NCBI RefSeq assembly: GCF_030388325.1
Contig: NZ_CP103794.1
Location: forward strand, 620,001-684,000
Source of the DNA: Flavobacterium johnsoniae
Lineage (GTDB): Bacteria; Bacteroidota; Bacteroidia; Flavobacteriales; Flavobacteriaceae
Direction of reading: 5' to 3'
DNA length: 64,000 nt
The notes beneath the pieces were generated by a model, which saw only the letters and a program-made list of their open reading frames with translations, did no database searches and had not been told where the DNA came from. Position numbers and translations under genes: made by a program. This document shows positions 5,167-28,413 of the stretch, piece after piece; the first letter of the stretch is position 1, and every line of letters begins with the position of its first letter.

Positions 5167-5209
5167 GTGGTCCCACCTGGGCTCGAACCAGGGACCACCT
5201 GATTATGAG
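5167..5209. repeat. attL: 43-bp tRNA 3'-half duplicate at left end of island
   Basis: The 43 bases are identical to 28339-28381 and cover the anticodon loop, variable loop, T arm and acceptor 3' strand of the tRNA(CAT) gene. The 5' half of the tRNA is missing here, so this is the displaced chromosomal 3' end. The integrase gene starts 153 bases to the right, as expected for a tyrosine-recombinase element inserted in a tRNA. Confidence 0.93.
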
Positions 5210-5361
5210 ATAGACTATTAATGTTTGTATTTAATTGCATTTAGCTTCAAAGCTACTGTTTTATAGTTATTCATCATTTTTAAAAAATACTTTTGTTTCA
5301 TCCTACTTCACAATATGTATGCATTTGTTGTACGTATGTTGAACTTTTAAAAATATTAAAA

Positions 5362-6588
5362 ATGAAAGCTAGTGTAAAAATCATCCTAAAAAAAACAATG
5401 CTTAATGATGGCACTTTTCCAATTAATTTAAGAATAACGATAAACAGAAAATCGAAATTCTACAAAACCCCTTACAATGTATTACCAAAATTTTGGAACA
5501 ACAAAGCAAATGAATTTACAACTAAATTCCCAAATTATTTACAATGTAATCGAATATTAAATTCAATAAAACAAGATGCTTCCAAAATATTAAACATAAT
5601 GATCGAGGAAGGTCATAACTATTCCCTTGAATCATTTGACTCTTTATTTAGACCTGAAGAAGTTAAAAAGATAAGCTTTATCACTTATTTTGAGGAGAGA
5701 AAACTTCAATTAAAAGAATCTGGAAAAATAAGCTCAAGCTGTTCCTATCGTGATACCATTTCTGCTCTTATGAGATTTAGACCAACAATCATAACTTACG
5801 ATTTTACAAAAATTAATTACGATTTTTTAATGGCTTTTGAATCTCATTTACGAGCTCATGATTGTAACGATGGTGGTATTGGCGTATATATGCGTAACAT
5901 TAGAGCAATATACAACTCAGCAATAAAATCTAAAATTGTTTCTAGTGAATTTTATCCTTTTAAAGATTATATAATTTCAAAATTGAAATCCAGTAAAGTA
6001 AAGAAGGCTTTAAGTAAACAAGATTTACAACTATTACTGGACTATGACATATCTGAAAACAAAGAGGGTGCGAAAGCATTGTATACTTATCTATTTAGTT
6101 TTTACTGCCGAGGTATGAATTTCACAGATGTCGCTGAGTTAAAATGGGAAGATGTTGATTTAAGCAGTTTTTCGTATATTAGAAATAAAACGCAAGTAAA
6201 ATTAAATGTAAAAATTCCAAATAATCATTATACGAGAACTATTCTAAACTACTTTAAAATTTATCGACCGTTTGATACCGATTATATTTTTCCGATTTTA
6301 GACAAAGATGAAAAGTTGTATACAAAAGAAGAATTGAGAGATAGAAAAAAAAGTGTTTTAAATTATTATGGAAAACTTCTCAACATTATCGCACTCCAAT
6401 GTGGTATTAAAAACAAAGTGACTTTTTACACTGCCAGACACACCTTTGCAACAATCTCTTTAAAAAAAGGTATCAATACCGTCATGATTAAGCAAGCTTT
6501 AGGACATCAATCTATTAAAACAACTGAAACTTATTTAGAAGATTTCAATAATAAAGATTTAGATATCGCCTTTGAGAACTTAATCTAA
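5362..6588 (+). CDS. int: Tyrosine recombinase (integrase) of the island
   Basis: From the ATG at 5362 the protein has 408 aa; an upstream TTG at 5293 would add 23 Cys-rich residues and is unlikely to be the true start. The N-terminus (KASVKIILKKTMLNDGTFPI) is the Arm-type domain typical of Bacteroidota integrases, followed by a SAM-like core-binding domain (about 110-200). The catalytic domain shows Arg in YCRGMNFTDVAELKW, ARHTFAT, the GHQS box and the nucleophile Tyr in TTETYLEDF. All catalytic residues are present. It sits next to attL and should catalyse insertion into and excision from the tRNA(CAT) site. Confidence 0.95.
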   Translation: MKASVKIILKKTMLNDGTFPINLRITINRKSKFYKTPYNVLPKFWNNKANEFTTKFPNYLQCNRILNSIKQDASKILNIMIEEGHNYSLESFDSLFRPEEVKKISFITYFEERKLQLKESGKISSSCSYRDTISALMRFRPTIITYDFTKINYDFLMAFESHLRAHDCNDGGIGVYMRNIRAIYNSAIKSKIVSSEFYPFKDYIISKLKSSKVKKALSKQDLQLLLDYDISENKEGAKALYTYLFSFYCRGMNFTDVAELKWEDVDLSSFSYIRNKTQVKLNVKIPNNHYTRTILNYFKIYRPFDTDYIFPILDKDEKLYTKEELRDRKKSVLNYYGKLLNIIALQCGIKNKVTFYTARHTFATISLKKGINTVMIKQALGHQSIKTTETYLEDFNNKDLDIAFENLI

Positions 6589-10200: not shown

Positions 10201-10925
10201 ATTTGGGTAGTTGGCTCTGTTAAATAATAACTACCATTGAATTCTATAAAGGGTTTAAGTAGAATAGGATTATTATCGACATCGTCATAATCAATTAAAG
10301 TTTCTCTATCAAAAACAAAATACTTTATTATATCATTTTGAATACCTAGTTTCCTGTAAATTACCTCTACTTTGTCAAACGAAAATTTAAATAACTCTTT
10401 GCGTTTTTTAAATTCATCTTCATCTAAAAAGCATAATTCGATTTCCCCATCATTTCCAAATGACATATACCGCTCAAAATTTAGGTCTTTTGCTATTTCA
10501 TTATGTATGTAAAGCATAAAAAGTAAACCATCATGAATTAATAGTTTTAACTCATTTGGTAAATCATTATCACTTTGGAGAATTGCTTTAACAAGAGAAT
10601 CGACAGTTTCTGTGCTATTATTTGCAGTTCCTGGAAATACAATATTGTTACCATTAAAAAATTGAAAATTCTCTGTGAATGAAGTTTCGGCTGGGTCTTC
10701 TCTGTAATCCGAAGGAAATAATTCTGTAAGTATATTTATAACACCATCAACATTAATTGATTTTGTTACAGCATTTAAGTTATTAATTATAATGCTTTGA
10801 ATGATTTCAAGTCTTAAGTTTTTTCCGTGATTTACAGGCATAACTTTAGACAAAGAGATAAATTGAAGTAGCTCTAAAGTATTTCTATCTTTAATAAAAT
10901 TTTCAAACTCTTTATAATTATTCAA
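7293..10925 (-). CDS. Large unknown protein with C-terminal PD-(D/E)XK nuclease-like domain
   Basis: A 1210-aa protein of unknown family. Most of it (about 1-1050) shows no motif I recognise: no Walker A, no helicase motifs and no membrane segments. Near the C-terminus, about 1095-1125, the segment DYGDIDILAF followed by IFCIECKNTKQAKV has the D-x(n)-E-x-K layout of restriction-endonuclease-fold and NERD-like nucleases. It is followed by an R/K-rich helix (RGKWLEKNKEQ) and a strand (VKTLVISSYQLPV). It sits between the integrase and McrC, 280 bases from mcrC, so it probably has its own promoter. Its position at the end of a defence island suggests an anti-phage effector, but this is inference only. 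Confidence 0.8.
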   Translation of the reverse strand: MNNYKEFENFIKDRNTLELLQFISLSKVMPVNHGKNLRLEIIQSIIINNLNAVTKSINVDGVINILTELFPSDYREDPAETSFTENFQFFNGNNIVFPGTANNSTETVDSLVKAILQSDNDLPNELKLLIHDGLLFMLYIHNEIAKDLNFERYMSFGNDGEIELCFLDEDEFKKRKELFKFSFDKVEVIYRKLGIQNDIIKYFVFDRETLIDYDDVDNNPILLKPFIEFNGSYYLTEPTTQMYCLNEFMLNILEQNNQTELAQQLFDDVIIFKAKSLLKKMHWLPTDITEKFKDKNPLTKNETLWQFDENKLAYVYIIPHSKSEETKYYDKLIDDRISILLELVDPHFEFFSFFIFSSISIKEFSFLTFDEIKNSKQQFAVNIIDLERLISFWDIDELSLWKYSKSMDRAIEKKVQIMPFFSILTYYKWYVRNHYSFFESDSFYNGISFGFDIQGNIVMETNSNIDKHLVRYIDNKKGLGYIPVYKSEKHLPIYLSEAINFGKYSRVIEVFDFPLWFSLSKRKNNFGVHFIDAIAFWFFELSNDIKKGVNPLGKLPVEFIIEIDERYNSFSSVDFNEIEEKDHDVTYEISPLSRKIFFHIDINFFIRLHRNDNSGEQYLMSIILEAFSQLLAQLNLDPIHSEVIQTSIHNNIPFGSAKMILTADSSYNLKMDNRYVPRPRYISKADTSIVLEELVSWMDLEKELPEKITDKKEKHDLFVKCVVTLISKLREVLNQYDYIELIKFLMYHHEAVIQVSEFRKIHIPAKIACFSKYDNIINDYKDTESKIVNSSLAYRSLIEFIVAEPFNGMKKPNKDDVDFLLAIMDEILYFGALQDLVKYDINNPEVGLLPSGRIGVSKEFFTDTLSEYHKSNIDDEIVDYKSNFKKQFKSKKEITDVKEKERTEYSIKLDKIFNETWGITLPQLDDISNFLAEHCIINEKSYCILNEESIFQLIKENSDYSDEIIKSYLDVLSLESRGKMDVPPAGLEYPEIYPWRYNRMISYLRMPIIKLKNDQSEYTYIWSPRFLIKATDNLIDLFYDGSLKLPNEQTKLQNLLAERNNHKGKEFRNEVFEWLNINPDLEVIKFEVKIKKKGFLIADKDYGDIDILAFDHKNKIIFCIECKNTKQAKVIYDFQRDINNYLNKQLPKHISRGKWLEKNKEQLNIKFNNLFDNYDVKTLVISSYQLPVKFTTDTEIPLYSFNEIKTKKIF

Positions 10926-11205: not shown

Positions 11206-12483
11206 TCAAATTATTATATTATGTTCTAAGTATTTATTTAAACGAATGCCCATTTTCGTATCTAAAATTGAATTAGTATCATTGAGAACTGACACTTTCA
11301 TTAACCCACATTCATGTGCTTTAGTATTTCCAGCTTTATTTGTAAAATTCCCTTTTATATATTCAGGTTCTTCTTGATATTCTAATTTAGGATATAAAAG
11401 AATTGCGTTTTTAGCATTCCAATATTCATTATAAACGAACATTTGTTTTAGATCATCATCCGATGGAATATTGTTTTCTACCAATTTCCATTTTGTATCT
11501 ATAATGGTAGTACATTTTGTTATTTTGTGTTCAATGACAATATCGGGGCGAATTGATTTGCTTCTTACCGAATTTGATAATCTCCAAAAGGTTTTAGAAT
11601 TCTGAACTTTTAAATTCCAATCTCTATGTTTTCCTTTAAATAATTGACGGTAAACATATTCTTCCCACAAACAATTCATATCAAAAAGGATTGCAAGCAC
11701 ATGATTTTTGCCATTACTAATATCTGGACGAAAGTTTAGCAATAACATAGCCGCAATTTCAATTGCTTCCCGATAATGATTGTTCTTTCTATTATAATTT
11801 AGCCTAGAAAACAATTCTTCGCTAACTTGAATGTCTTTTAAATCTGGGAAAGATAAAATAAGATTACTGACTTTATCTTTTAAAAATGGACTTGAACTTA
11901 TTTTAGGGATTAATTTTAATGCTTTAAAAAGTATTTGGTTAAATTCATTTTCTCTATCGTACTCCTGATGTTTAGTGTAAAAATTTTCCTGATGAACCAA
12001 GTTTTTTTGAATTTGAATATTAAAAAGTAATTTTCCTTTTAAAGCTTTACAATTTCCTTCTTCAAAACGGTATTTTTTAAGTAAACCCATATGAAGGATT
12101 TTTTCACATTCATTTATAAAAAGTTCTAAGTATACTTCAAGAATGCTATTTGGTTTAAAATTTAAATTTGCTTTTTCATGAGAGTAAACATTCATCCATC
12201 GACATTCTCTTAGCATGTCTATTAAGACTTTTTGCCATTTTGCTTTGTCTTTTTCTTCTGCTGCTTGGCCAATTTTCGGAAGCACTTCAATAGTCAAATC
12301 ACCGACTTGTATTACTCCAACATATTTATTAAATCTCACACCATTGGGAGTTAGTGTAAAAAAATTTCCACCGTGTTTCTCATTATACCAACCTAAAGCT
12401 TTCCAATGATTTTCTTTAAAACCATTAGAATTAATAGTGAGTGTTTTGTACTCATAAACTTGTATTGGCTTATTAATACGCAT
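11206..12483 (-). CDS. mcrC: McrC-like nuclease subunit of a type IV (McrBC) restriction system
   Basis: The 425-aa protein has the McrC plan. The N-terminal half starts with a beta-rich region (YVGVIQVGDLTIEVLPKIG, about 53-71) typical of McrC/LlaJI-type proteins. The C-terminal PD-(D/E)XK domain shows RPDIVIEHK, then TTIIDTKWK (about 308-335), giving the Asp and D-x-K catalytic residues. It starts 19 bases after the mcrB stop and is clearly cotranscribed. McrC activates the McrB GTPase and cuts DNA containing modified cytosines. The motif set is intact and the length is in range. Confidence 0.9.
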   Translation of the reverse strand: MRINKPIQVYEYKTLTINSNGFKENHWKALGWYNEKHGGNFFTLTPNGVRFNKYVGVIQVGDLTIEVLPKIGQAAEEKDKAKWQKVLIDMLRECRWMNVYSHEKANLNFKPNSILEVYLELFINECEKILHMGLLKKYRFEEGNCKALKGKLLFNIQIQKNLVHQENFYTKHQEYDRENEFNQILFKALKLIPKISSSPFLKDKVSNLILSFPDLKDIQVSEELFSRLNYNRKNNHYREAIEIAAMLLLNFRPDISNGKNHVLAILFDMNCLWEEYVYRQLFKGKHRDWNLKVQNSKTFWRLSNSVRSKSIRPDIVIEHKITKCTTIIDTKWKLVENNIPSDDDLKQMFVYNEYWNAKNAILLYPKLEYQEEPEYIKGNFTNKAGNTKAHECGLMKVSVLNDTNSILDTKMGIRLNKYLEHNIII

Positions 12484-12502: not shown

Positions 12503-15130
12503 CTAATACAATGATTGAAAATCACTAATACTTATGGTGTTACAATCTTTTAATTTATATTGCCAAGACTGATCATACTGTCCTGCTACTCCATTTCCGC
12601 CACTGAATGTTGCAAAAATATTGCTTGATATTTGTTCTTTTACTTCAAAGAAATTATCCCCTAATACTAATCCTAATTTTTCATAATCATTATAAAAATA
12701 TTCCTGTAACAATGGAATGATTTTATCTGCAAAGGCTTTTCTTAAATCAGCCACATTATGAATGTTCCATAACCAAGCATGACCAATTGTATGATCATTA
12801 TCTTTCAACACCTTTAATCTTTCATTTATTTTGGCCAACATTGAGACTAAATTAATACCATCTGTAGTTATACTAAGTTTATCTTCTTCAGGTAGTTTTG
12901 GAACAAACGAAAACCTTCTTCTTAATGCAGTATCTAATGCTTCTACACTTTTATCAGCCGTATTCATAGTCCCAACGATGTATAAATTAGGTGGAACACA
13001 AAATGCAGTTTTTGAATATGGTAATTCTAATCTAATTTCTTCAGATTTTCCTAATCTTTTATCCTCTTCAATTAACGTAATTAATTCTCCGAATATTTGC
13101 GCCACATTGCCACGATTAATTTCATCTATAATAAAAACATATGGTTCACTATTATCATCTTCTATTAATTTATATTCTGCATTTTTCCAATAGGATTTTA
13201 CGATACTTTTTTTGTCTTCATATTTTAATTCAGTTACATCTTCGTTAATCGGCTGTTGGTTTGGTTGCAAATTATGGATTGCATTCAATACACTCCAAAA
13301 AGCAGTAGAGTTACAACCTCCAATTATATTTCTGAACTCCTCATGGATGTTATTAATAACGGTTAGGTCAGGAAATCTCTCAAACAAAGGTGCTAATCTA
13401 TTTCTTGAAACTGTATAAGTTCTTGTGCCATTTAAGTGCTTAACACTAAAATTGCCTTGGTCTGTTACTGCTACTAATACATTTCCACCATTTAATGTAC
13501 TTAATGCTATTTCACCCGCTTGTTCCACATCTTCAAATAATTGATCATACAATTGATTGAAAGTTCTGATTTGAATTTCCTGTTCGTTTTCCGGAAAATT
13601 CCTTTTGATGAAATTGTATGTTGCTTCAATACATGCTTTCATAAATACCCCATCTTGAATTTCATATTTTAGAAATTCGTCGTCATCTTCAGGTTCTATT
13701 GGTTTTATTCCTTCAATAAAATCCTCATAAGCCATGTTTTGATGAAATGTGGTGAAGTAAACTCTATTTTCACATTGAAAGTTTGCAAAAAGACTTTTTC
13801 TTCGTTCTCTTTCAAGATTCCCATCGTTAACATTTAATATTTCAAGTGCTAAATCAATTGTACTGTATGTTTTACCTGTACCCGGAGGTCCGAAAAGTAT
13901 TGTGTTTAGTGTCATCTCAAATGGATTATTATTTTGGTTTTCAATATTTAGCGGTACTTGTCGAATGGTTCCATTTCCTCCATCTATTATATTCACATTG
14001 TATTTTGATTGAAATATATTTTTATTCATGAAATCAAGTTCCCATTTGGGAACTTCATAAAAAGTTGAATTACCGCTTGGCATAAAAAATCGCTTGTCTT
14101 TTTTAAATTCACGAACAGAATTATTTATAGGGTAGAAAAAAGGTTCAATTTCACGATATATCCATTCTCCTTTTCCTTCAATTAAATCATCACTATCTGT
14201 ATCTAAAGGTTGCGAATTGGAAATTATTTTGCCAATTGTGTAGACCTCATCTCCTCCGTAGCAGATATACACATAATCTCCTATTTTAAGTTTATTTTCA
14301 AAGTTAGCACCTTGACTTTTCCCTGTTTTACTGAATAAACAAATCCAATTGTTTTGTTCTAGAACACGCGCAAATCCAGAATTATATAAACGTTTTTCTT
14401 TTTTAAAAATCCCATGAGATATTTTATAGAATTTGTTACCTTTGATATCTAGGGTAGTTAATTCATTTGAAACATTGATATATTTATCAAAATTATGGGC
14501 AAACATATCTATTAAACCCAAATCCGTTTCATCTGCCAATGCTCTTAATTCATCAAAATCTTTTATACAGCTAGGATAATTAGCAGAAATATCTATCCAT
14601 TCCCTAAATTTTAAATGCGAGTTATTGAGGATTGGAAATATTTGAGGATTAATATAATACAACCAGGGTGAATAAATTCCTGATTTTACTAATGGTATTC
14701 CTAGATTATCAAAATCAGCACAAAACTTTACAGCCTCTGCAATTGCATTAATAGTGAAGGCTTTTTTGAGAAAATTGCTGATACTTATAAGTTGTTGTGA
14801 ATCTAGACTGGTTATCGAATTTAATCCTGCACCTGTATAACCCCACAGGTCTATCTCAGAAGCTAAAACTGATAATTCTTCAAGTCGTGTTGTATCTGAA
14901 ACATTTAGTTTTAAATATTTATCAAAGGTTTTATCACTACAACCGTATTTAAACATCTGAATTAATCCTGTCAGATGCTCATTTTCTAATTGATTATTCT
15001 TTAGCGTTTCTTCAATAATTTGTTTATTTAGTGCTACAACAGCAAATTGCCTTTTACGGTCAGTATAATCATTAGAAATTTTATAAATTTGATATAACTC
15101 ATTAAATTTAGGAAATAATGCTGTTCTCAT
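12503..15130 (-). CDS. mcrB: McrB-like AAA+ GTPase with an EVE/PUA-like modified-base reader
   Basis: An 875-aa protein. The C-terminal half is an McrB AAA+ motor: Walker A FGPPGTGKTYS at about 411, Walker B VFIIDEINRGN at about 663, the McrB signature GTMNTADKSVEALDTALRRRF at about 720-745 and a C-terminal helical lid. Before it (about 240-380) comes a segment with NWICLFSKTGKSQGANFENKL-type strands and KIGDYVYICYGGDEVYTIGKI. This resembles an EVE/PUA-like domain that flips and reads modified bases. The first 200 residues form an extra helical domain I do not recognise. With McrC it would restrict modified DNA. Confidence 0.88.
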   Translation of the reverse strand: MRTALFPKFNELYQIYKISNDYTDRKRQFAVVALNKQIIEETLKNNQLENEHLTGLIQMFKYGCSDKTFDKYLKLNVSDTTRLEELSVLASEIDLWGYTGAGLNSITSLDSQQLISISNFLKKAFTINAIAEAVKFCADFDNLGIPLVKSGIYSPWLYYINPQIFPILNNSHLKFREWIDISANYPSCIKDFDELRALADETDLGLIDMFAHNFDKYINVSNELTTLDIKGNKFYKISHGIFKKEKRLYNSGFARVLEQNNWICLFSKTGKSQGANFENKLKIGDYVYICYGGDEVYTIGKIISNSQPLDTDSDDLIEGKGEWIYREIEPFFYPINNSVREFKKDKRFFMPSGNSTFYEVPKWELDFMNKNIFQSKYNVNIIDGGNGTIRQVPLNIENQNNNPFEMTLNTILFGPPGTGKTYSTIDLALEILNVNDGNLERERRKSLFANFQCENRVYFTTFHQNMAYEDFIEGIKPIEPEDDDEFLKYEIQDGVFMKACIEATYNFIKRNFPENEQEIQIRTFNQLYDQLFEDVEQAGEIALSTLNGGNVLVAVTDQGNFSVKHLNGTRTYTVSRNRLAPLFERFPDLTVINNIHEEFRNIIGGCNSTAFWSVLNAIHNLQPNQQPINEDVTELKYEDKKSIVKSYWKNAEYKLIEDDNSEPYVFIIDEINRGNVAQIFGELITLIEEDKRLGKSEEIRLELPYSKTAFCVPPNLYIVGTMNTADKSVEALDTALRRRFSFVPKLPEEDKLSITTDGINLVSMLAKINERLKVLKDNDHTIGHAWLWNIHNVADLRKAFADKIIPLLQEYFYNDYEKLGLVLGDNFFEVKEQISSNIFATFSGGNGVAGQYDQSWQYKLKDCNTISISDFQSLY

Positions 15131-15410: not shown

Positions 15411-16604
15411 TTACTTTAAGACAATCACTCTATTCTCTGCATCATATTTATATTTAATTACCTCTCCACTAATAATTAAGTCAATAGCATGTTCAATAAT
15501 ATCAAGCGGAGCAATAAACCACTCTCTAGGAGTATAGCGTTTTTTATTTTCATCAAAGATGTCAATATTCATACAGGCTTTTCCGAAGAAATTATGCAGC
15601 AACTGTTCCAGTTTTTGGGGATTCATATTGTAGCATTTCCAAGCACTGACTATTTGTACCGGAGCCATTAGGTAAGTTGGTTCTTTTTCGGCATTTTTAA
15701 TTCTTTCCTGAACCTCATCTTTTGAATAACCTATTTTATATAAATTGTCTATCGTAATGATTTTTTCGTCTTTACTTTTCGATATCAATACATAGATGAA
15801 ACCTGCTTCTTTGTCTTCATCGGTAATGTCATTAAATTTTTCGATAAAAGCCTCATTTACTTCATCAACGTTTTCAGAAACGACTTTTCCATTGGCATAC
15901 AAAATTTTCTCTACCGATCTTTTCAACATATTCGATTCGGTTCCGTTTTCAAAAACGCATCTGGTTCGTCCGTCTTCGCGAACTCGGGTACCGTCTTCTT
16001 TGTAGTGCTCTTTTTTGGTTATTTGAATTTTTTCCAATAGAAACAAAACTCCATTATGAACATAATAAGTTCCTTCACGCAAATTACCTTGTTTAAAGTC
16101 GACTAATTTTCTTTTCCCATTGGACAAATCATTATGAATCCCCTTAAACAAGCGTTCGTACTCGTCAAATTTCTTTATTGATTTTCTTCTTGCTACGAAA
16201 TCTGCTGCTGCTCTATCGTCATCTTTTGGAGTGTGTTTGAAATCAAACAAATCGGTATTATCATCCAATAAATCGAAAGTATCATCGGCAAAGATATCAT
16301 CAAAGGATTCAATTGTTTTCACTTCCAATTTCAATAAACCGTGATCATCTTCCCTTAGTAAAGATTCTAATTTATTAATATCGGCTCTTATTCCTTTTAA
16401 TCGGGTATAAAGTTGGTATTCGGATATGTTAGCCGGATTGGGTTGAGGTTCCCGATTGTGCTTTTTGAAAAAAGCATTAATTTCTCCAAAAGAAGCCACC
16501 AATCTTTCATCTGCATTACGAGCATTAGAAATCTTTGGTTTGACATTTAAAATGTCAAACTCATCGTTATTAAAAATATCATCCAGAACTTTATTCTTAT
16601 CCAT
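15411..16604 (-). CDS. GIY-YIG nuclease partner of the helicase
   Basis: A 397-aa protein. The C-terminal third is a GIY-YIG domain of the T5orf172/MUG113 type: GFIYVLIS (GIY strand), NLYKIGYS (YIG strand), QERIKNAEKEPT with the conserved Arg, and KLEQLLHNFF with the metal-binding Glu. The N-terminus holds two acidic repeats (DDIFNNDEFDIL at about 7 and DDIFADDTFDLL at about 107). It also holds a segment NAFFKKHNREPQPNPANISE that resembles the C-terminal end of the neighbouring helicase. Its start overlaps the helicase stop region by 8 bases, so the two are translated together. It most likely cuts DNA as the nuclease arm of the helicase/methylase system. Confidence 0.85.
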   Translation of the reverse strand: MDKNKVLDDIFNNDEFDILNVKPKISNARNADERLVASFGEINAFFKKHNREPQPNPANISEYQLYTRLKGIRADINKLESLLREDDHGLLKLEVKTIESFDDIFADDTFDLLDDNTDLFDFKHTPKDDDRAAADFVARRKSIKKFDEYERLFKGIHNDLSNGKRKLVDFKQGNLREGTYYVHNGVLFLLEKIQITKKEHYKEDGTRVREDGRTRCVFENGTESNMLKRSVEKILYANGKVVSENVDEVNEAFIEKFNDITDEDKEAGFIYVLISKSKDEKIITIDNLYKIGYSKDEVQERIKNAEKEPTYLMAPVQIVSAWKCYNMNPQKLEQLLHNFFGKACMNIDIFDENKKRYTPREWFIAPLDIIEHAIDLIISGEVIKYKYDAENRVIVLK

Positions 16605-18531
16605 TTGACATTCGTTTTCTTTTTTCCTCCTTCAAATAAATAATACATTCGGCCATTCTTCTTTCCAATGGATTGTTTGCATTTAGGCTTGGTTCTCTAT
16701 CATACATTTTTTTGAACTCGACAATTTTGGGCCACAGAATTTTAGCTTCTTCAAAATCCATTTTAACTCTTGTGGCTTCAATGGTGTCCTGAATTACTTT
16801 CAGCACTTTTGCTGTCACCGATTTCGAAAGGATTTCGAAAGCTTTTTGAAAAGGATTAATGGTATCAATTAAATCGATATGTATGTCTTCTATGTTTATG
16901 AATTTATCGGCCATCCTGATAAACCGTTGGTCACCTACTTCTTTAATTTCTCCGTTTTTTACAACTGAATCCACCACAACATGTTGACGAATTTCTTCAA
17001 TTTCATCATCAGACAATTCAGGATATTTGACCCTAATGATTTTGGGTATCAAAACTTTGTTGATTACTTCGGGATCAATATTTCCCGGCATTGCTTTCAG
17101 CATAGTGTCATCCTGCAATATTGTAGCTTTCAGGTCATTTAAATCTGATTCAACTATGTCTTTGACCCTTTTAGAGCTTGGCTCTTTAAAACCTCTTATT
17201 CTGATTTCACCAGATTTTACATCTTCGTCCTCATTATCAATTTTGGTCTTGAACTTAAAATTTGGAGCCAATACCTGTTCCATCAACAATGAAGCAGTAA
17301 TGGCTTTCAACATATTATTAGTAGCAATTTTTACATCATCTTGGATGGCTTCAGGGCTGGCAATAAGGTTGGTAAATTGAGCGTGGGTTTTATTGTTGCT
17401 ATCCCTCGTGCAACGACCAATAATCTGGATTATCTCAGTTAATGAACCTCTGTAACCCACCGTTAAAGCGTGTTCACAAAAAGGCCAGTCGAAACCTTCC
17501 TTTGCCATTCCCAATGCAATAATCAAATCCATATCATCAACTGATTTGATGTTTCGTAAGTAGTTGACTATCTTATCTCTTTCTCTTAAACTATCCTCCA
17601 CTAAATCGGCTACTTTCAATAACTTACCGTCTCCATGGCGTTTGATATGAATCACACCAGTATCGGAGTCTTGCTTAATTACGTCTCCAATGGCATCTAA
17701 AATGAAATTGACCTCGTTGTGTTTGTCTTTGGTAGATTCTCCTGAATTTACATTTGGAATATGGAGTATTGTTTTTTTATTGGTATCCAGAATTTCAAGT
17801 ATAGCTGAAGTGTATTTTCCTGTGTAAAAGTGGTATCCAATTCCCAAAGATTTTAGAAAGTTGTAACCATTTAATTGTTCGTAATAATTGTAAGTTACTT
17901 TAGTAAACTTTGCTTCGTTCTCTGGTGTTAAAATAGGTACGCTATCCCCTCTAAAATAAGAGCCTGTCATTGCCACAATATGAGCCGTAGATTTGCTCAT
18001 TATAGATTTTAATAATTCACCCAATCTATTATTCGCATCGGCAGAAACGTGGTGGAATTCATCGATTGCAAGAAGTGTATCATTGAATTTTGTTTCGTCA
18101 AATTCTTCACAAGCAAAGCGTAAAGTGGCGTGTGTACAGATTAATATTTTCTCGTCGCTATCCATAAATTTATGGAATGCTTTTACTTTACTGCTGCTTC
18201 CTTCGTCCCCTGGTGTACAAAGATTGTACTCATCGTTTAGTTCCCAATTGGCAAAAAAACCATCTCTTTTTAAATCCATTGAAGAGAATGAACTACCAAT
18301 AGAACGCTCCGGAACTGCAACAATTACTTTTTTAATTCCTTGATTTACTAGTTTATCTAATGCCAAGAACATTAAGGCACGTGATTTCCCTGATGCCGGA
18401 GGTGCTTTTAATAATAAATACTGTGCATCACGAGATTCAAAGGCACGAGTCTGCATTTCTCTCATACCCATCGGATTTGTTTTTGTACTGTTTCCCGTTT
18501 TATGATAATTTACATTTACTATATCTGGCAT
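16597..18531 (-). CDS. DEAD/DEAH-box superfamily 2 helicase of a putative restriction system
   Basis: A 644-aa SF2 ATPase. Walker A is LKAPPASGKSRALMF (43-55), motif II is AIDEFHH (DEFH at 157-160), motif III is AMTGSYFRGD (about 188), and motif VI is QIIGRCTRDSNN (about 369). The C-terminal 50 residues carry EFKKMYDREPSLNANNPLE, a small helicase-associated-like module that also appears at the start of the GIY-YIG protein. It lacks a nuclease motif of its own. It overlaps the GIY-YIG gene by 8 bases and follows the AlbA_2 gene after 177 bases. A DNA translocase role in restriction, comparable to HsdR motors, is inferred. Confidence 0.88.
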   Translation of the reverse strand: MPDIVNVNYHKTGNSTKTNPMGMREMQTRAFESRDAQYLLLKAPPASGKSRALMFLALDKLVNQGIKKVIVAVPERSIGSSFSSMDLKRDGFFANWELNDEYNLCTPGDEGSSSKVKAFHKFMDSDEKILICTHATLRFACEEFDETKFNDTLLAIDEFHHVSADANNRLGELLKSIMSKSTAHIVAMTGSYFRGDSVPILTPENEAKFTKVTYNYYEQLNGYNFLKSLGIGYHFYTGKYTSAILEILDTNKKTILHIPNVNSGESTKDKHNEVNFILDAIGDVIKQDSDTGVIHIKRHGDGKLLKVADLVEDSLRERDKIVNYLRNIKSVDDMDLIIALGMAKEGFDWPFCEHALTVGYRGSLTEIIQIIGRCTRDSNNKTHAQFTNLIASPEAIQDDVKIATNNMLKAITASLLMEQVLAPNFKFKTKIDNEDEDVKSGEIRIRGFKEPSSKRVKDIVESDLNDLKATILQDDTMLKAMPGNIDPEVINKVLIPKIIRVKYPELSDDEIEEIRQHVVVDSVVKNGEIKEVGDQRFIRMADKFINIEDIHIDLIDTINPFQKAFEILSKSVTAKVLKVIQDTIEATRVKMDFEEAKILWPKIVEFKKMYDREPSLNANNPLERRMAECIIYLKEEKRKRMSNG

Positions 18532-18708
18532 ATATTTCGTTATTGATGGTTAATTACCTCTATTATGAGCTTGATTTTTTAATAAAACGGTAGTTTATTT
18601 AATAATTTTAAACACTTTAACTACTTAACAAAAAACAAACAAACCCTTATTTAACAGCTACTTAAGAAGTTTTACTACTGCTTTATTTAATATTTTTATT
18701 TAATATTT

Positions 18709-20379
18709 TTATTTTTTATTTAATATTTTTAACACCCACTTGGACTTTATTCTACTACCAATATTCTCAATAGTATTTCCTGCCATTTCTTGAATTAAAT
18801 TATTGATATAGATTTTTCTCTGCTTTTCATTTTTATAATCTGGCAGGTTAGCAAATAGTATAGAATCAATTTCTTCACGCGTAGCAAAACCGTGGTTCTT
18901 TATATGCTGAATAACAAAACCTTTATAGACCTCTTTGTCTAATCCTTTGTTTTTAGTGTAATTAGCCTTTTGCCCTGTAAGTTCTGCAAGTGTTGCTGAT
19001 ATATAATAGTTCGGTTTTCTACCTTCAATAAGTTCTTTTTTCTTTAATAGTTTTGCAGCATCATCATTGATTGGTAAATGTTTCTGGACTTTGTCTAAAA
19101 GAATTACTTCTGTTAAACTTAAATCGTCTTTTTTCTCAATTAGCAGTTTAGAGTAATTTTCATCTATTGTATGTCCGTAAATCTCCAAAACTACATTGTT
19201 TCTGGTTGATTTTGTATAATCTGGTAATGGAAAAAATCTTTTGCGTTGCTCTACATACATCCTGTAAATACCATAACCCATTGTATCGATCATATTCAGA
19301 TTAACCATTGCATTGACTAACCAACGATTTCGATATTTTTTGGGTGTTTTTTCTCCAGTTGTATAATCTTCGGCTGTTCCTTCAAAGAAACCTCCTTCGT
19401 TAGAAAAAATCAGTTTATTAACTTGTTCGGTCAATACTATTCGTGAATTATGGCTATAATCTTGATGTGCAATACAATTATTTAAAGCTTCTAAAATTAC
19501 TTTTGTATCGTATTTATTCACTTCGGTTGAAAGCAATTGATTGTCTGGAAAAAACTTATACTTTACATTTCGTATTCTTTTTAAAATATCGTTAATGCTA
19601 ACAAATAGAGGAATATCAAAATGCTCATAAGCTTTCTCTTCGGTATCCAATTTCCAAGTGATTTGTGCCACTGATGGCGAAATACAATGTGATGCTTCGG
19701 GTTTTCCTAAAAGTATTATTGCTGTATTGGTTATTTTTCCTCCAATTGTTATTTTGGCTTTGTCAAGAAATGTTTTTGCATCCCAATCGTCTATTTTATC
19801 ATAAATGGCTGTACCAGCATTTTTTTCTTTAAACTTGTCTTTAGCTTTTACAATAGCATCAGGATCTAAATCCTCAATAGTTGCACTATCAATACAATTT
19901 GCGGACCAATCTTCCTCTGAATTGTAAATTGCTTTTACATGCTCTGGATAATTTCTTAAATCAGTTAAGCTACTATCAAATCTAATATATGGTATTTTTT
20001 TAAAGTGTGTAGGCTCTCCTTTAGCAGCAGGAATTCTAAATATTTCGACATGAGCACTATCATACTGACAAACAAAATGATTGAAACGAACTGAAGGATG
20101 TAAATATTGACGCAAATACAATTCTAGTTCTTGGTTGCCTTCTTTCTTATTTTTAAGTTTAAAAGTTGTTCCTGTAACCTGATGTGTATTATCGTCGATA
20201 CCAAAAATAAAATAACCAAAAGATTGATTGTTAATACAAGCAGCATTTGAAATGGCAGAAATATACTGTCCAATTTTGTCGTTAGTAGTTGCAGTGCCTT
20301 TTTTAAACTCTACCCATTCATTTTCTTTGGGCAAAGCTCTCAACTCATCGATTAATTCTATTAATTCGGGATTTGTCAT
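18709..20379 (-). CDS. AlbA_2 (Schlafen-like) / HATPase_c_4 domain protein with winged-helix tail
   Basis: The 556-aa protein has the divergent AAA-4/AlbA_2 plan. Residues 18-140 show ENEWVEFKKG, GQYISAISNAACIN, FGYFIFGIDD and PAAKGEPTHFKKIPYIR, the Schlafen-like nucleic-acid-binding AlbA_2 domain. Residues about 290-390 hold EALNNCIAHQDYSH and TMGYGIYRMY, as in the HATPase_c_4 domain. The remainder, from about 400, looks like tandem winged helices. Such proteins act as regulators or as defence accessory proteins. It lies 26 bases after the 276-aa gene within the methylase operon. Whether it regulates the operon or belongs to the effector complex cannot be told from sequence. Confidence 0.85.
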   Translation of the reverse strand: MTNPELIELIDELRALPKENEWVEFKKGTATTNDKIGQYISAISNAACINNQSFGYFIFGIDDNTHQVTGTTFKLKNKKEGNQELELYLRQYLHPSVRFNHFVCQYDSAHVEIFRIPAAKGEPTHFKKIPYIRFDSSLTDLRNYPEHVKAIYNSEEDWSANCIDSATIEDLDPDAIVKAKDKFKEKNAGTAIYDKIDDWDAKTFLDKAKITIGGKITNTAIILLGKPEASHCISPSVAQITWKLDTEEKAYEHFDIPLFVSINDILKRIRNVKYKFFPDNQLLSTEVNKYDTKVILEALNNCIAHQDYSHNSRIVLTEQVNKLIFSNEGGFFEGTAEDYTTGEKTPKKYRNRWLVNAMVNLNMIDTMGYGIYRMYVEQRKRFFPLPDYTKSTRNNVVLEIYGHTIDENYSKLLIEKKDDLSLTEVILLDKVQKHLPINDDAAKLLKKKELIEGRKPNYYISATLAELTGQKANYTKNKGLDKEVYKGFVIQHIKNHGFATREEIDSILFANLPDYKNEKQRKIYINNLIQEMAGNTIENIGSRIKSKWVLKILNKK

Positions 20380-20405
20380 TTTGTATTTTTATTTTTTTTT
20401 ACCTT

Positions 20406-21236
20406 TTAAGATTTTATTTTACTTATTCTTAATACAGTATGTAATGTTGCTAAATAATAATAAAAAATCCAGCTGTACCAAATCTCTTTATTGTAATTAG
20501 TTTTTTGGTCAGCATTGTGATGTCTTATGCCAAAATTATTAGCAATATTAAAAATGTCATTTTCATCTTTCTTATCCAAATGTTTTTTTATTTCAGGTCT
20601 TAAAAATTCTAGTACATCAGCCAACTCTCTAATAGCTTCTTTTCTATCATCTAATGTAGATTTTGCTTTCCTAAACTTTAGTATTGCAGAATTCATTTTA
20701 TTAGAAATATTACCGGCATCATCTGTTGGAATATCAGCTTCAAATAAATTAGTTAGACCATTATCGGACAAAATTAAGATCTCTCCGTTTTCTGAAATTT
20801 CAAATCCATCTTTATAGTCACGCAAAATAATATTCATCGTATTTCTGAAATGTTGCTTTCCGTCGAGTTTACTATAAGATTCATAATGATATCTGCCACA
20901 TCCAAATCTAGTTTCATCACAATAAATACCAATGTGCCCTTTCGAACAATGGTCGTATAAAAATTCTAAAACATCAAAAAAATCTTCTTCACTATAATTA
21001 TTAAGCGAAGTTGGTATTGGAAATAAATTTTTTTTTCGCATTTTCAGGAAAATATAATCACTAAAATGATTACTTACTTTTCCTTGTATATGATCGTTAT
21101 TACACCAAAAACCAATATATTCTTGAAAATACCCCTCTTTATTAAGAATATTATAATTGCTCAAAAAGAGATCTTTTAACATTCCGAAATCAATTTTACC
21201 ATCCCCTGTACGAACAGAGTAATATTCTCTTTCCAT
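20406..21236 (-). CDS. Unknown 276-aa defence-operon protein, possibly HEPN-like at the C-terminus
   Basis: I do not recognise the family. The N-terminal half has aromatic and Cys/His-containing segments (FWCNNDHIQG, IGIYCDETRFGCGRYHYES). The centre is helical and charged (DDRKEAIRELADVLEFLRPEI). The end has FGIRHHNADQK followed by a hydrophobic helix (WIFYYYLATLHTVLRI). An R-x-H pair before a terminal helix is reminiscent of HEPN/Abi RNases, but the match is loose. Its start codon overlaps the methylase stop (TAATG), so it is translationally coupled to the methyltransferase, and the AlbA_2 gene follows after 26 bases. A role in the same system is therefore likely. Confidence 0.75.
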   Translation of the reverse strand: MEREYYSVRTGDGKIDFGMLKDLFLSNYNILNKEGYFQEYIGFWCNNDHIQGKVSNHFSDYIFLKMRKKNLFPIPTSLNNYSEEDFFDVLEFLYDHCSKGHIGIYCDETRFGCGRYHYESYSKLDGKQHFRNTMNIILRDYKDGFEISENGEILILSDNGLTNLFEADIPTDDAGNISNKMNSAILKFRKAKSTLDDRKEAIRELADVLEFLRPEIKKHLDKKDENDIFNIANNFGIRHHNADQKTNYNKEIWYSWIFYYYLATLHTVLRISKIKS

Positions 21237-23935
21237 TAATTTTTCACTTGTTTTACTTTCTTTCTTTTCAAAAACAACATATCTTTTTCTTTTTCCTCTG
21301 CAATCATTTTTTCATACAATTTGAAAAGGTATTCCAATCTTTCTTCATCGCTTTCAAAAGGCTTGGAACGATAACAACGTTCTACCGCCAAATCATTTAA
21401 ATGATGTGCTTCTCGCAGACCTTTGGGCATTTTTTCAGGGTCGTAGAGTTGTGCCAAGGTTTTCTCGGAGTAGTTTTCCCGTTCTTCTAAAATTCTAAAA
21501 GCAGATTGTGTTAATTCTCCTTTTTGGTATTCTGAAAGTGATGGGAATGGGAAAGTATTGTAACATAAAGAATTTGAATAAGTAATATCAGTTTTTATAC
21601 CCCCTCCAACAGATTTAGCCCAGAGGAAATGTATTCTAGATGTCAAAAAACTTAAGATAGTTATTTCTGAATCATAAATTACTTGGACTGAGTGTAATGT
21701 TTGTACATTTCCAAACTTAATATCTACTGGCAAATAATTCCTTTTACTACTAGATGTTTGAGGCATCATAATAGTGTGCTCCTTTGGTTCATGTACATAT
21801 CTAAATCTATAAGGAATATTGGCAAGTGATTTTGCAACTTGACCTCCATTAGTACGGAATGAATATACTAAATCAAACCTTCTTTTAAATTCAGGTATCT
21901 TAACGGCCTCATTAAACTCGTCTTCATTTACCCATATACACCATTGAACCTCTCCTTTCATTAAACTAGAACCGCCATATAATCGTCTAATAAATTTTTC
22001 GGAATTAGGATAAGATTCGAATATTTTATTTTTTTCGTCATCGCTTAAGGTTAAAAACCCCCCATCAATTGCCTGATTACCATAGACTACTCTTGGAACT
22101 ACTCCTAAAGGTTCTGCTCTTTTCTGTACAGAAACATTTTGTTTATTTGTTAAATAAGGTGAAATATTATTTACTATTGCTTTTGTACCACCTGTAAAAA
22201 TATATTTACTTTCGTTGTTAACATTTCTTAATCCAACAATAATTACTGCAACAACCGCAGCTTTTTTGGCATTATTAGACCATTTAAAAGCTTGATATGC
22301 AAAATGAATTTCTAAATTTTTATTAAAAATATAAGGCCATAATAAATCAACTTGTTGTCCTTGGCAAATAGAATTGGTAGAAACAAATGCAAATTTTGAG
22401 TTATTCCCTTGTATGTATTTACTTCCGAGATAAAACCAACATGCTATATAATCCAAACTATTTTTCCCTGAAATATCTTTTAAAGAAATTGAAACATCGC
22501 TTTTTTGCTCATCATTTTGGTTTCTAGCACCCAAAAAAGGTGGATTCCCCAAAATGTAAGTTTCATCATTTGGTAGTTTTGGGCAAACAACTTCCCAATC
22601 TACTCTAGTAGCGTTTCCATGAACAATAGAGCTGGTTTTTTGCAAGGGTAGTGCCGGTTTTGTTCTACCAAAAGCTTTAAAAAACTCTTGATTCATTTGG
22701 TGTTCTGCCAGCCAAAGTGAAAGTATGGCGATTTCGTGAGCAAAATCGTCAATCTCAATACCATAAAAATTATTCAAGCTTATGCCTGAGTATTGGTTCG
22801 AGTACGTTTTATTTACTTTATCAATTTCCTTGAAGATAAACATTTCCAGTTTTCTCAATTCTTTGTAGGCGATAATCAGGAAGTTTCCACTACCGCAAGC
22901 CGGGTCAAATAGTTTGATGCTCCAAATCCTTTTCAATAATGCTTCGAGCTTGTTTTTGTTGCCATTGGCATTTTCAAATTCTGCATATAAATCATTCAAA
23001 AACAAAGGCTCTATTACTTTCATAATATTAGGTACACTCGTGTAGTGCTGTCCTAAACTACCACGTTGATCTACCGAAATAACCGCCTGAAACATAGAAC
23101 CAAAAATATCTGGATTTATAGATTCCCAATTTTGGTCGCCACTATCCAAAATTGCTTGTCGACTACGGCGTGTAAAAACTGGTGCTGTATATTGGTTTTC
23201 GAACAAACCGCCATTTACATAAGGAAATTTTTGAAGATATTCAGGAAGGACAATTCTCGAATTATCTGTACTGGGAATGTTCATCACTGCAAACATTTTA
23301 TCAAGATAGTCGCTTAAATCGCTACCATCTGTTTGCGTGTGGTTTTGAATGGAATGGGTAAACAAGTTCTTTTCGAAGATCCCTGTATCTTCTGCAAAAT
23401 AGCAAAATAACAAGCGGGAAAGAAATACATTCAGTCCGTGAATAAATTCGGGAGAATTATCTGGATTATCTTTTTTGATTTCGTCAAAAAGCTTTGCCAT
23501 TTTTTCAGCCGCTTTTACATCAGCCGGATTCTCATTTTGGTGTTGTGCTTTTTCCATACCTGCCCAAGGCAAAAAGAAATCAAAATGTTTTGGCAATGCA
23601 GTAAAATCGATATCTAAACTATCGTTTGTTTTCACATCAATGGCGAGCAAAGTCTTGAAATCGGTAACGATTACAAAACGCTGCTCTTGTTTGAGTGTGT
23701 TTTTTATCTCGGAAATGGCTTGATGCAAATCTTGATTAAAGACTGGTTTGAAAAACAGTTTTTTCTTCCACGATATTTCCCCTTCTATTTTTGATAAGTT
23801 AAGATTTCCTTTTTGTAATCGTGTTATGGAAGCTTTTGGTGAACCATAGGCCAATAATAACTCAAAAATAAAAGTTTCTTTATTGAAATCCAGAATCAAG
23901 TCTTGAAGATTTTGTTCTATTTGGGCAATGTTCAT
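21236..23935 (-). CDS. MmeI-like DNA adenine methyltransferase/specificity protein
   Basis: An 899-aa protein with the domain order of MmeI-type (type IIL-like) methylases. It has an N-terminal domain (1-130), a helical spacer (130-320), a gamma-class N6-adenine methyltransferase with motif I LFDPACGSGNFL (about 342) and motif IV ILGNPPFLGARN (about 460), and a target-recognition region (about 600-820) containing RRLYGGSSLMKGEVQW. The helical C-terminus ends in a Lys-rich tail. NPPF indicates adenine methylation. True MmeI enzymes carry a D-x(n)-E-x-K nuclease site in the N-terminal domain; I see none here, the closest being D92...D100-V-K102. It heads a coupled operon whose later genes could supply translocation and cleavage. 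Confidence 0.9.
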   Translation of the reverse strand: MNIAQIEQNLQDLILDFNKETFIFELLLAYGSPKASITRLQKGNLNLSKIEGEISWKKKLFFKPVFNQDLHQAISEIKNTLKQEQRFVIVTDFKTLLAIDVKTNDSLDIDFTALPKHFDFFLPWAGMEKAQHQNENPADVKAAEKMAKLFDEIKKDNPDNSPEFIHGLNVFLSRLLFCYFAEDTGIFEKNLFTHSIQNHTQTDGSDLSDYLDKMFAVMNIPSTDNSRIVLPEYLQKFPYVNGGLFENQYTAPVFTRRSRQAILDSGDQNWESINPDIFGSMFQAVISVDQRGSLGQHYTSVPNIMKVIEPLFLNDLYAEFENANGNKNKLEALLKRIWSIKLFDPACGSGNFLIIAYKELRKLEMFIFKEIDKVNKTYSNQYSGISLNNFYGIEIDDFAHEIAILSLWLAEHQMNQEFFKAFGRTKPALPLQKTSSIVHGNATRVDWEVVCPKLPNDETYILGNPPFLGARNQNDEQKSDVSISLKDISGKNSLDYIACWFYLGSKYIQGNNSKFAFVSTNSICQGQQVDLLWPYIFNKNLEIHFAYQAFKWSNNAKKAAVVAVIIVGLRNVNNESKYIFTGGTKAIVNNISPYLTNKQNVSVQKRAEPLGVVPRVVYGNQAIDGGFLTLSDDEKNKIFESYPNSEKFIRRLYGGSSLMKGEVQWCIWVNEDEFNEAVKIPEFKRRFDLVYSFRTNGGQVAKSLANIPYRFRYVHEPKEHTIMMPQTSSSKRNYLPVDIKFGNVQTLHSVQVIYDSEITILSFLTSRIHFLWAKSVGGGIKTDITYSNSLCYNTFPFPSLSEYQKGELTQSAFRILEERENYSEKTLAQLYDPEKMPKGLREAHHLNDLAVERCYRSKPFESDEERLEYLFKLYEKMIAEEKEKDMLFLKRKKVKQVKN

Positions 23936-24043: not shown

Positions 24044-25300
24044 TCATCTTCTTATTGCTCTCTTTCTTTTTCTTTTTGGAAATTCATCATCAACACCTGG
24101 AACAGTTTCAAAGAGAAGAGATGATAAAATGGATGTTAATTTTTCGGTGTTAATTTTCCAATCCTCTAATGACGGTTCGGTTTGTTGCAATTGCTTCGTT
24201 GTTTTATTATCGACCTTAAATAATTCATGGAATTTTAAGTTTTGATCAATTTCACTCTCTTTGAAATCTATTCCTGATTGTTCGTGAAAAAAGTGATTCT
24301 CTTGGATAAAATTATCTTTGTTTATTATTGGTAAAACTTGAATGGCAAATTTTATCATGCGTTGTTGATACTCTTTTAAATTGTTTGGTTTAGTCATCAA
24401 AATATTGAAATGAGCATTCTTAATTTGTTTTTTTATATAATTCCTATTAATCGATTCAATTTGTATTTTTTTGTTGATTTCATGTTTGTCTTGAGGATTT
24501 CCATTTTTTAAAATATTTTGATTCTGAAATTTTTCTAGCTCCTTTCGTTTATAATTAAAATGTTCATCAAAAGTTTTTTCGTTTGAATTGATCCATTTCA
24601 CTCTATCAAACCCCACTTGATATTCGTTATTGCCAATTTTTCTATTGGATTGTTTTTCATTACAAGTAGGGCTTAGCTTTAATAGTTGAGTTTTGTCTTT
24701 TCTAGAAACAATAACATGAATATGAGATTGCAACCCTTTTTTATACTGTCCAGAAATTTCCTTTCCGTCAATAACCTCTTTATCTGTACCCTTAAATTTC
24801 CTAAAATGTTCAATTTTCCCAAAATAAACTAAATCAGCTCCCGTTTTTATCCCTTTATCTTGACGATTAAAATTCAAAGCATAGTTGTCCATCGCTTTGC
24901 GTCCATATTCTCTAATCAGATTATTAAATTGCTCTAATTCGGATGAATTTAATTCCAAAACACTTATTACTTCTCTTTTACCAGTAGCCAGAAAGGCAAT
25001 ATGACTCAACTCATTTTCGCTGAAGCTAATTGTTGGAGCAAAATATTTAGCATCATTTGCTCCTAATTTTCTTTTATTATTATCGATACAACTAATAACA
25101 TCTATCGTCCTGATATTAATCTCTGAAGCTGTAAAGAAACCTTGTTTCCTATTTTCGAGCTGAGATATTTCATTCATTGAGGAAGATTTTTTGATGATTC
25201 TATCTAATTCTTCATTTTCCTTTTCTAAGTAAATAGCCAAGTTGGCACAACTTCCTTTATTGTCAGCTCCACGTGTACTATGTGGTTTAGATATTGGCAT
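24044..25300 (-). CDS. mobB: MobB-type relaxase (DUF5712-like)
   Basis: A 418-aa protein starting MPISKPHSTRGADNKGSCANLA, the opening typical of Bacteroidota MobB/BmgA relaxases. The H-x-H metal motif occurs in LQSHIHVIVSRKD (about 190), with an upstream YFGKIEHFRKFKG segment. The C-terminus is basic and ends KRKRKRAIRR. Relaxases nick oriT and lead the strand into the recipient. Its start codon overlaps the BtgA stop by one base (TAATG), so the two are translated together. No transfer genes are present, so mobilization needs a helper element. Confidence 0.88.
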   Translation of the reverse strand: MPISKPHSTRGADNKGSCANLAIYLEKENEELDRIIKKSSSMNEISQLENRKQGFFTASEINIRTIDVISCIDNNKRKLGANDAKYFAPTISFSENELSHIAFLATGKREVISVLELNSSELEQFNNLIREYGRKAMDNYALNFNRQDKGIKTGADLVYFGKIEHFRKFKGTDKEVIDGKEISGQYKKGLQSHIHVIVSRKDKTQLLKLSPTCNEKQSNRKIGNNEYQVGFDRVKWINSNEKTFDEHFNYKRKELEKFQNQNILKNGNPQDKHEINKKIQIESINRNYIKKQIKNAHFNILMTKPNNLKEYQQRMIKFAIQVLPIINKDNFIQENHFFHEQSGIDFKESEIDQNLKFHELFKVDNKTTKQLQQTEPSLEDWKINTEKLTSILSSLLFETVPGVDDEFPKRKRKRAIRR

Positions 25301-28338: not shown

Positions 28339-28381
28339 GTGGTCCCACCTGGGCTCGAACCAGGGACCACCTGATTATGAG
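28339..28381. repeat. attR: 43-bp repeat within the intact tRNA gene
   Basis: Exact copy of 5167-5209. Here it is continuous with the tRNA 5' half to its right, giving a complete tRNA gene. Confidence 0.93.
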
Positions 28382-28413
28382 TCAGGTGCTCTAACCAGCT
28401 GAGCTATAGGACC
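28340..28413 (-). tRNA. tRNA with CAT anticodon (Met elongator or Ile2)
   Basis: A 74-nt cloverleaf on the minus strand: 7-bp acceptor stem GGTCCTA/TGGGACC (one G-T pair), D arm AGCTCAGCTGGTTAGAGCA, anticodon stem CCTGA/TCAGG with loop CTCATAA, and T arm GGTTCGAGCC. CCA is not encoded beyond a single C. A CAT anticodon can be elongator Met or the lysidine-modified Ile2, which sequence alone does not settle here. It is the integration target of the island; its 3' 42 bases come from the element side. Confidence 0.95.

Follow-up and report, generated by a model that had tools for sequence, protein, structure and literature searches.

Does a restriction-like block of five same-strand genes encode one composite enzyme, or a smaller enzyme that houses exchangeable genes? 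The block lies in a 64,000-nucleotide (nt) stretch of Flavobacterium johnsoniae DNA (GCF_030388325.1, NZ_CP103794.1, positions 620,001–684,000; hereafter the window, to which all coordinates refer) and encodes, in order, an MmeI-family methylase, a protein of 276 amino acids (aa), a Schlafen-type AlbA_2 protein, a superfamily 2 (SF2) helicase and a GIY-YIG protein. A first-pass annotation had described it as a candidate split restriction system, novel in its combination of genes, in which the second and third genes would supply accessory factors. The reading preferred here is that the methylase, helicase and GIY-YIG genes form a trio of the DnmA-YeeB-YeeC type and that the methylase–helicase junction is a cargo slot, filled in the window by two swappable genes whose products are predicted to be back-up abortive-infection effectors. 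Taken as a whole, this reading stands about evenly balanced between right and wrong.

The methylase–helicase junction is a variable cargo slot

The five open reading frames (ORFs) have exactly the coordinates and junctions that were first annotated (Table 1). The methylase gene overlaps the 276-aa gene by 1 base (TAATG), gaps of 26 and 177 bases separate the 276-aa gene from the AlbA_2 gene and the AlbA_2 gene from the helicase gene, and the helicase and GIY-YIG genes overlap by 8 bases. Equivalent junctions were compared in 85 loci. Of these, 79 belong to the best 80 of a single genome scan, from which a duplicate was removed, and six come from other genomes of the genus; the best 80 were ranked by identity to the window helicase and are not a random draw. 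These 85 remained from 95 collected loci after 10 short or duplicate loci were left out, and the 13 without a usable upstream methylase match reduce the set to 72 for the methylase–helicase junction. Junction lengths were taken from the tblastn ends.

The methylase–helicase gap is at most 150 bp in 38 of the 72 loci, 150–700 bp in four and more than 700 bp in 30, and extra DNA of more than 150 bp is present in 34. The helicase–nuclease gap stays within 150 bp in 82 of 83 loci, the exception being L058 (436 bp). At the level of sequence, this survey shows that the methylase–helicase junction is a variable cargo slot and that the trio is constant. Of the five genes in the block, these three are kept in relatives and the two between them vary. 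Because 38 of the 72 loci carry no cargo, the trio does not need it. Recognition of the slot also explains why gene number differs between loci. On a quick helicase tree of 72 rows, which include the window and omit L042 with its helicase truncated at a contig end, cargo presence changes at least 20 times, and 10 of these changes are forced by well-supported branches.

Seven relatives with helicases 85–92% identical to that of the window hold seven different slot contents. The slot contains a 310-aa gene and a BRO-N gene in L010, a 225-aa gene and a DUF1016/YhcG gene in L042, a 156-aa gene in L011, a KAP NTPase gene, a 349-aa gene and a Fic gene in L012, a 372-aa gene and a Fic-cluster gene in L014, and an AlbA_2 gene without the 276-aa gene in L013; it is empty in L091. 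In six of the seven, homologous DNA stops near the 3′ end of the methylase gene (21233–21288) and restarts at the start of the helicase gene (18531–18544). In L013, the homology picks up 4 bases beyond the 276-aa gene and continues through the AlbA_2 gene, and the 276-aa and AlbA_2 genes are therefore separate modules. These breakpoints and contents show cargo turnover at short evolutionary range.

Table 1. Positions of the five-gene block, its slot and the features of the surrounding island in the window
Feature	Coordinates	Strand
Core gene 1: MmeI-family (DnmA-type) adenine methylase with target-recognition domain, 899 aa	21236..23935	-
Cargo gene 1: 276-aa protein, no Pfam family above cut-off	20406..21236	-
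Cargo gene 2: Schlafen-type SLFN_AlbA_2 + HATPase_c_4 protein, 556 aa	18709..20379	-
Core gene 2: SF2 helicase (YeeB-like), 644 aa, motifs PPASGKS, DEFHH and QIIGRxTR	16597..18531	-
Core gene 3: T5orf172/GIY-YIG protein (YeeC-like), 397 aa	15411..16604	-
Variable slot, methylase to helicase, state in window	18532..21235	-
Left 43-bp direct repeat of tRNA-Met 3′ half, island end	5167..5209	.
Right 43-bp repeat, inside tRNA-Met gene (28339–28413), island end	28339..28381	.
Tyrosine integrase of island	5293..6588	+
MobB-family relaxase of island	24044..25300	-

The core trio and its known counterparts

The Pfam matches of the methylase comprise five MmeI domains spread over the chain, which corresponds to the full MmeI architecture; those of the 644-aa protein are DEAD, ResIII and Helicase_C, and those of the 397-aa protein are T5orf172 and MUG113. 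No Hsd family (HsdM, HsdS or HsdR) appears among the Pfam matches of the five-gene block. The only strong structure match of the methylase is MmeI (PDB 5HR4). A single-sequence alignment to 5HR4 started only at residue 84, and a profile of 11 methylases was therefore used instead. The profile alignment bears out the earlier remark that the methylase has no clear nuclease site. D70 of MmeI, which we take to be catalytic together with E80 and K82, sits in a 7-residue stretch that is absent from the family of the window methylase, and the position opposite E80 is occupied by K or R in 62 of 68 methylase rows. The idea of a cryptic MmeI-type nuclease in the methylase is rejected on this alignment. 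The window methylase thus resembles the type IIL enzyme MmeI in having all five of its domains but differs in lacking nuclease residues on the same chain and in having helicase and GIY-YIG genes alongside.

Conservation was read from alignments that include the window and cover 68 methylases, 85 helicases and 79 GIY-YIG proteins. At least 97% of the rows retain the S-adenosylmethionine (SAM) and NPP motifs of the methylase, the motifs of the helicase and, in the GIY-YIG protein, positions G268, Y271, K290-I-G292, R301 and E333. The target-recognition domain is the least conserved part of the methylase, with a mean identity to the window of 0.355 vs 0.58–0.68 in the other four domains, and DNA homology is lost around it in six of the seven close relatives (exception, L042). 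The ratio of nonsynonymous to synonymous substitution rates (dN/dS) against four congeners is 0.03–0.06 for the helicase and nuclease (one nuclease pair was not computable) and 0.15–0.25 for the methylase, with dS high or saturated. By these signs, the trio looks alive in the window.

The trio is widespread among genomes and plasmids. At least 583 stretches in one genome scan encode a helicase relative, and helicase matches occur on 263 plasmid records, with a query coverage of at least 80% in 153. The order methylase, SF2 helicase and T5orf172 protein is found in all four plasmid loci read, which were hand-picked from the 263 records and are all tight and without cargo. A second trio is present in the genome of the window itself (L090, G000:C1:443000-462000), with a helicase 67–68% identical and a 99-bp gap without cargo; L085, whose helicase is closest to that of L090 on the tree, carries AAA_13 and RhuM cargo. 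A cargo-free trio with a helicase 82% identical also occurs on a contig binned as a Methanosarcinaceae archaeon (L015), which reflects either cross-domain transfer or a binning error.

DnmA belongs to the MmeI homologues that lack a nuclease motif and are flanked by yeeB- and yeeC-like genes, for which an earlier paper suggested a Type I-like system (both as credited in PMC7261158). The DnmA-YeeB-YeeC gene order is conserved, and an uncharacterized protein family around dnmA may be a further locus member (PMC9973331). The trio has been tested in Bacillus subtilis, where it looked dead, and in Vibrio crassostreae (PMC7261158, PMC9973331). The window shares with these loci a nuclease-less MmeI-like methylase, an SF2 helicase and a T5orf172 protein in identical order, a likeness of family and order alone, and differs from them in the two extra genes between methylase and helicase. 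B. subtilis carries an MmeI_TRD protein, and no protein named YeeB was present among the 120 matches listed in a search from a Ureibacillus helicase. By family and order, the core trio matches the known DnmA-YeeB-YeeC type and not a new five-part machine. The novelty claimed for the combination is accordingly not supported, as a Type I-like system had already been suggested (PMC7261158) and the order of the trio is known to be conserved (PMC9973331). The part of the split-system proposal that survives is a methylase without nuclease, for which the helicase and GIY-YIG protein likely supply the cutting; its five-part novelty does not. No description of a cargo slot in DnmA-YeeB-YeeC loci was found in the open-access literature searched.

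Cutting by the trio would be guided by methylation and driven by ATP. The nuclease-less methylase likely marks one strand of an asymmetric site and sets the specificity of the complex. On DNA without the mark, the helicase would translocate and the GIY-YIG protein would do the cutting, in a type I-like arrangement with motor and nuclease on separate chains.

The cargo proteins and their proposed role

The SLFN_AlbA_2 domain of the 556-aa protein scores 60.4 bits vs a curated cut-off of 25.3, and its acidic residues E19 and E24, which are presumably catalytic, are present. The AlbA_2 gene has a dN/dS of 0.04 against L013. Relatives of the protein occur in 15 of 299 Flavobacteriaceae genomes, that of the window included, and in three of seven other loci fetched (L116, L119 and L121) the gene lies between hsdS and hsdR. 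The hsd names in these three loci are a reading of the ORFs, which as phmmer queries matched ORFs in HSDR_N loci.

The family of the 276-aa protein has 2134 matches in a protein search. Among 52 members, 42 match the candidate PADLOC family PDC-S32, and 15 weakly match AbiJ_NTD4 (best E value 5.5e-5, below the curated cut-off in the three shown). AbiJ_NTD4 is not listed in the profile scan of the window protein itself. The protein is only loosely tied to AbiJ. A C-terminal helical bundle with an invariant R238-H-H-N241 is predicted. Relatives are encoded in three of the 299 Flavobacteriaceae genomes and in seven of 395 genomes of the phylum, with that of the window counted in both. In one of the five contexts read, the relative (L201, 8985–9827) is followed directly by an HTH-like gene and a type III res-mod pair, and others adjoin an AAA_13 gene and two helicase genes (L202), a gene with a sub-threshold MmeI_Mtase match (L203) and an HNH gene (L205); nothing was recognized alongside the relative in L204. 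L201 hints that the 276-aa family follows restriction systems of more than one class. The survey does not support the proposal that the products of the two cargo genes are accessory to the enzyme. Relatives of the 276-aa protein were not found in the 72 slots examined, AlbA_2 genes are present in only 10 of them, and homologues of both adjoin other restriction systems.

The families of slot genes were assigned by a Pfam scan for 30 ORFs and for some others by phmmer cluster or tblastn. RhuM/BRO-N-cluster genes are found in 11 of the 34 occupied slots, AlbA_2 genes in 10 (L018 by tblastn) and Fic genes in four; L033 has a further AlbA_2 fragment, and the three sets are otherwise non-overlapping. 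The remaining families are AAA_13, DUF1016/YhcG, OLD with UvrD, KAP, PIN, M78-HTH, DUF3800, 23S-IVP and DUF1828. Only unrecognized genes fill the slots of L011, L050 and L092, and only an unscanned 89-aa ORF that of L019. The slot thus provides a list of linked effector families.

Homologues of the slot proteins also occur in type I restriction–modification (R-M) loci. The Flavobacteriaceae sample consisted of 40 of the first 44 HSDR_N places listed (four near contig ends or with short frames were skipped), one of which had no hsdM gene, leaving 39 loci. Such homologues (from families that include RhuM/BRO-N, AlbA_2 Schlafen, Fic and AAA_13) are found in the hsdM–hsdR interval of 15 of the 39 loci. 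They account for 15 of 70 ORFs between hsdM and hsdR vs two of 175 flanking ORFs (Fisher p = 1.7e-7, with ORFs that are not independent). These counts, again drawn from sequence, show that cargo families are common to the trio slots and type I loci.

Known systems offer precedents for embedded genes. Type I R-M operons with embedded genes (EcoprrI with PrrC, PMC3874165; the TgvAB gene pair, PMC11411939) likewise carry extra genes between modification and motor genes, but their methylase architecture is unrelated, and the nuclease of the window is a separate GIY-YIG protein. A comparable proposal has been made for HEPN, RhuM and DOC genes in R-M operons (PMC3710099). BREX and Hma loci resemble the window in holding variable extra genes within a multi-gene defence operon, although the core systems differ. 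Hma loci contain embedded or back-up effectors (as cited in PMC11411939), and BREX loci contain HEPN and PIN back-up effectors as well as back-up RNases that pair a Schlafen domain with a minimal histidine kinase (PMC12839542), a pairing like that of the AlbA_2 and HATPase_c_4 gene of the window.

From position and cargo type only, we infer a PrrC-like coupling in which the cargo is silenced by the R-M complex and released by anti-restriction. By analogy with PrrC in EcoprrI, the AlbA_2 and 276-aa proteins would stay silent as long as restriction functions and would attack RNA once a phage blocks it. More broadly, we suggest tentatively, and with somewhat more doubt than belief, that a single pool of exchangeable suicide effectors, inserted between modification and motor genes, serves restriction systems as unrelated as DnmA-YeeB-YeeC, type I and, from one example, type III; a phage that silences restriction would trip the toxin, and the position would be a general guard slot. 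The operon and its cargo-free relatives make it testable whether restriction operons police their own failure.

Several observations weigh against this reading. Cargo is missing from 38 of the 72 loci, and its presence is weakly clustered on the helicase tree (shuffled mean 24.3 changes; 25 of 500 shuffles as low). The unrelated TF_AP-2 profile is matched by 15 of the 52 members of the 276-aa family, as many as match AbiJ_NTD4, although the E values of the latter are better. The 276-aa protein has no confident PDB fold match, and the idea of a HEPN RNase, drawn from the helices and the R-H-H-N motif, is unsupported by fold. Four of the seven AlbA_2 relatives fetched are not beside recognizable restriction genes. 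In B. subtilis, neither plasmid uptake nor three phages were restricted by the trio: plasmid transformation was almost unchanged in the absence of dnmA (PMC7261158), and deletions of the trio had no effect on the phages (PMC9973331). The TgvAB pair is protective even in the absence of the type I nuclease (PMC11411939), in keeping with passengers that act on their own.

The chief alternative is that the cargo consists of independent defence modules that ride in an expressed and tolerated operon spot, uncoupled from the trio. The TgvAB precedent (PMC11411939), the great diversity of the cargo, including a complete-looking OLD and UvrD (Gabija-like) pair in L043, and the relatives of the AlbA_2 and 276-aa proteins found away from restriction genes all fit such passengers. 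Riding alone does not require, however, that cargo be concentrated at the methylase–helicase and not the helicase–nuclease junction, nor that the same families recur between hsdM and hsdR; we regard this alternative as possible but lean against it. Another reading, proposed for B. subtilis on the data above (PMC7261158, PMC9973331), makes the trio a dead relic whose methylase has become an orphan. It is unlikely in the window, where the frames are open, the helicase and GIY-YIG motifs are nearly invariant, dN/dS between congeners is low and the trio is carried on a mobile island; in V. crassostreae, moreover, deletion mutants were more sensitive to some phages (as cited in PMC9973331). In the first-pass annotation, the 276-aa and AlbA_2 proteins were seen as functional components of a single five-part enzyme, a view to which the shared strand and the tight spacing of the first three genes lend themselves. 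This highly improbable view is rejected because the cargo is replaced or absent in close relatives, L013 has an AlbA_2 gene without a 276-aa gene and 38 of the 72 trios are cargo-free.

The island and its neighbourhood

The five-gene block is located on a 23.2-kb island (5167–28381) at a tRNA-Met gene, with an exact 43-bp repeat of the 3′ half of that gene at each end. Within the genome, a 17-base core of this repeat is confined to the two island ends. In addition to the integrase and relaxase genes, the island contains a primase-like gene. Genome G015 (L228), with flanking genes 95% identical, one repeat and no island, represents the empty site. In genome G006 (L229, G006:C10:18800-37700), a pair of repeats at the same tRNA-Met site encloses a different element; the backbone of this element looks similar, and it carries two genes of ∼790 aa whose N-termini are sulfatase-like in appearance (putative).

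Other genes with possible defence functions lie nearby. Next to the block, on its strand and island, are an McrBC-like pair (11206–12483 and 12503–15130) and a gene whose product is distantly related to the anti-phage protein Upx (7293–10925; 152 bits vs a cut-off of 1900). A C-5 cytosine methylase gene (3616–4602) flanks the island, and in genomes G006 and G008 its homologue has beside it a gene that, by eye, is Vsr endonuclease-like.

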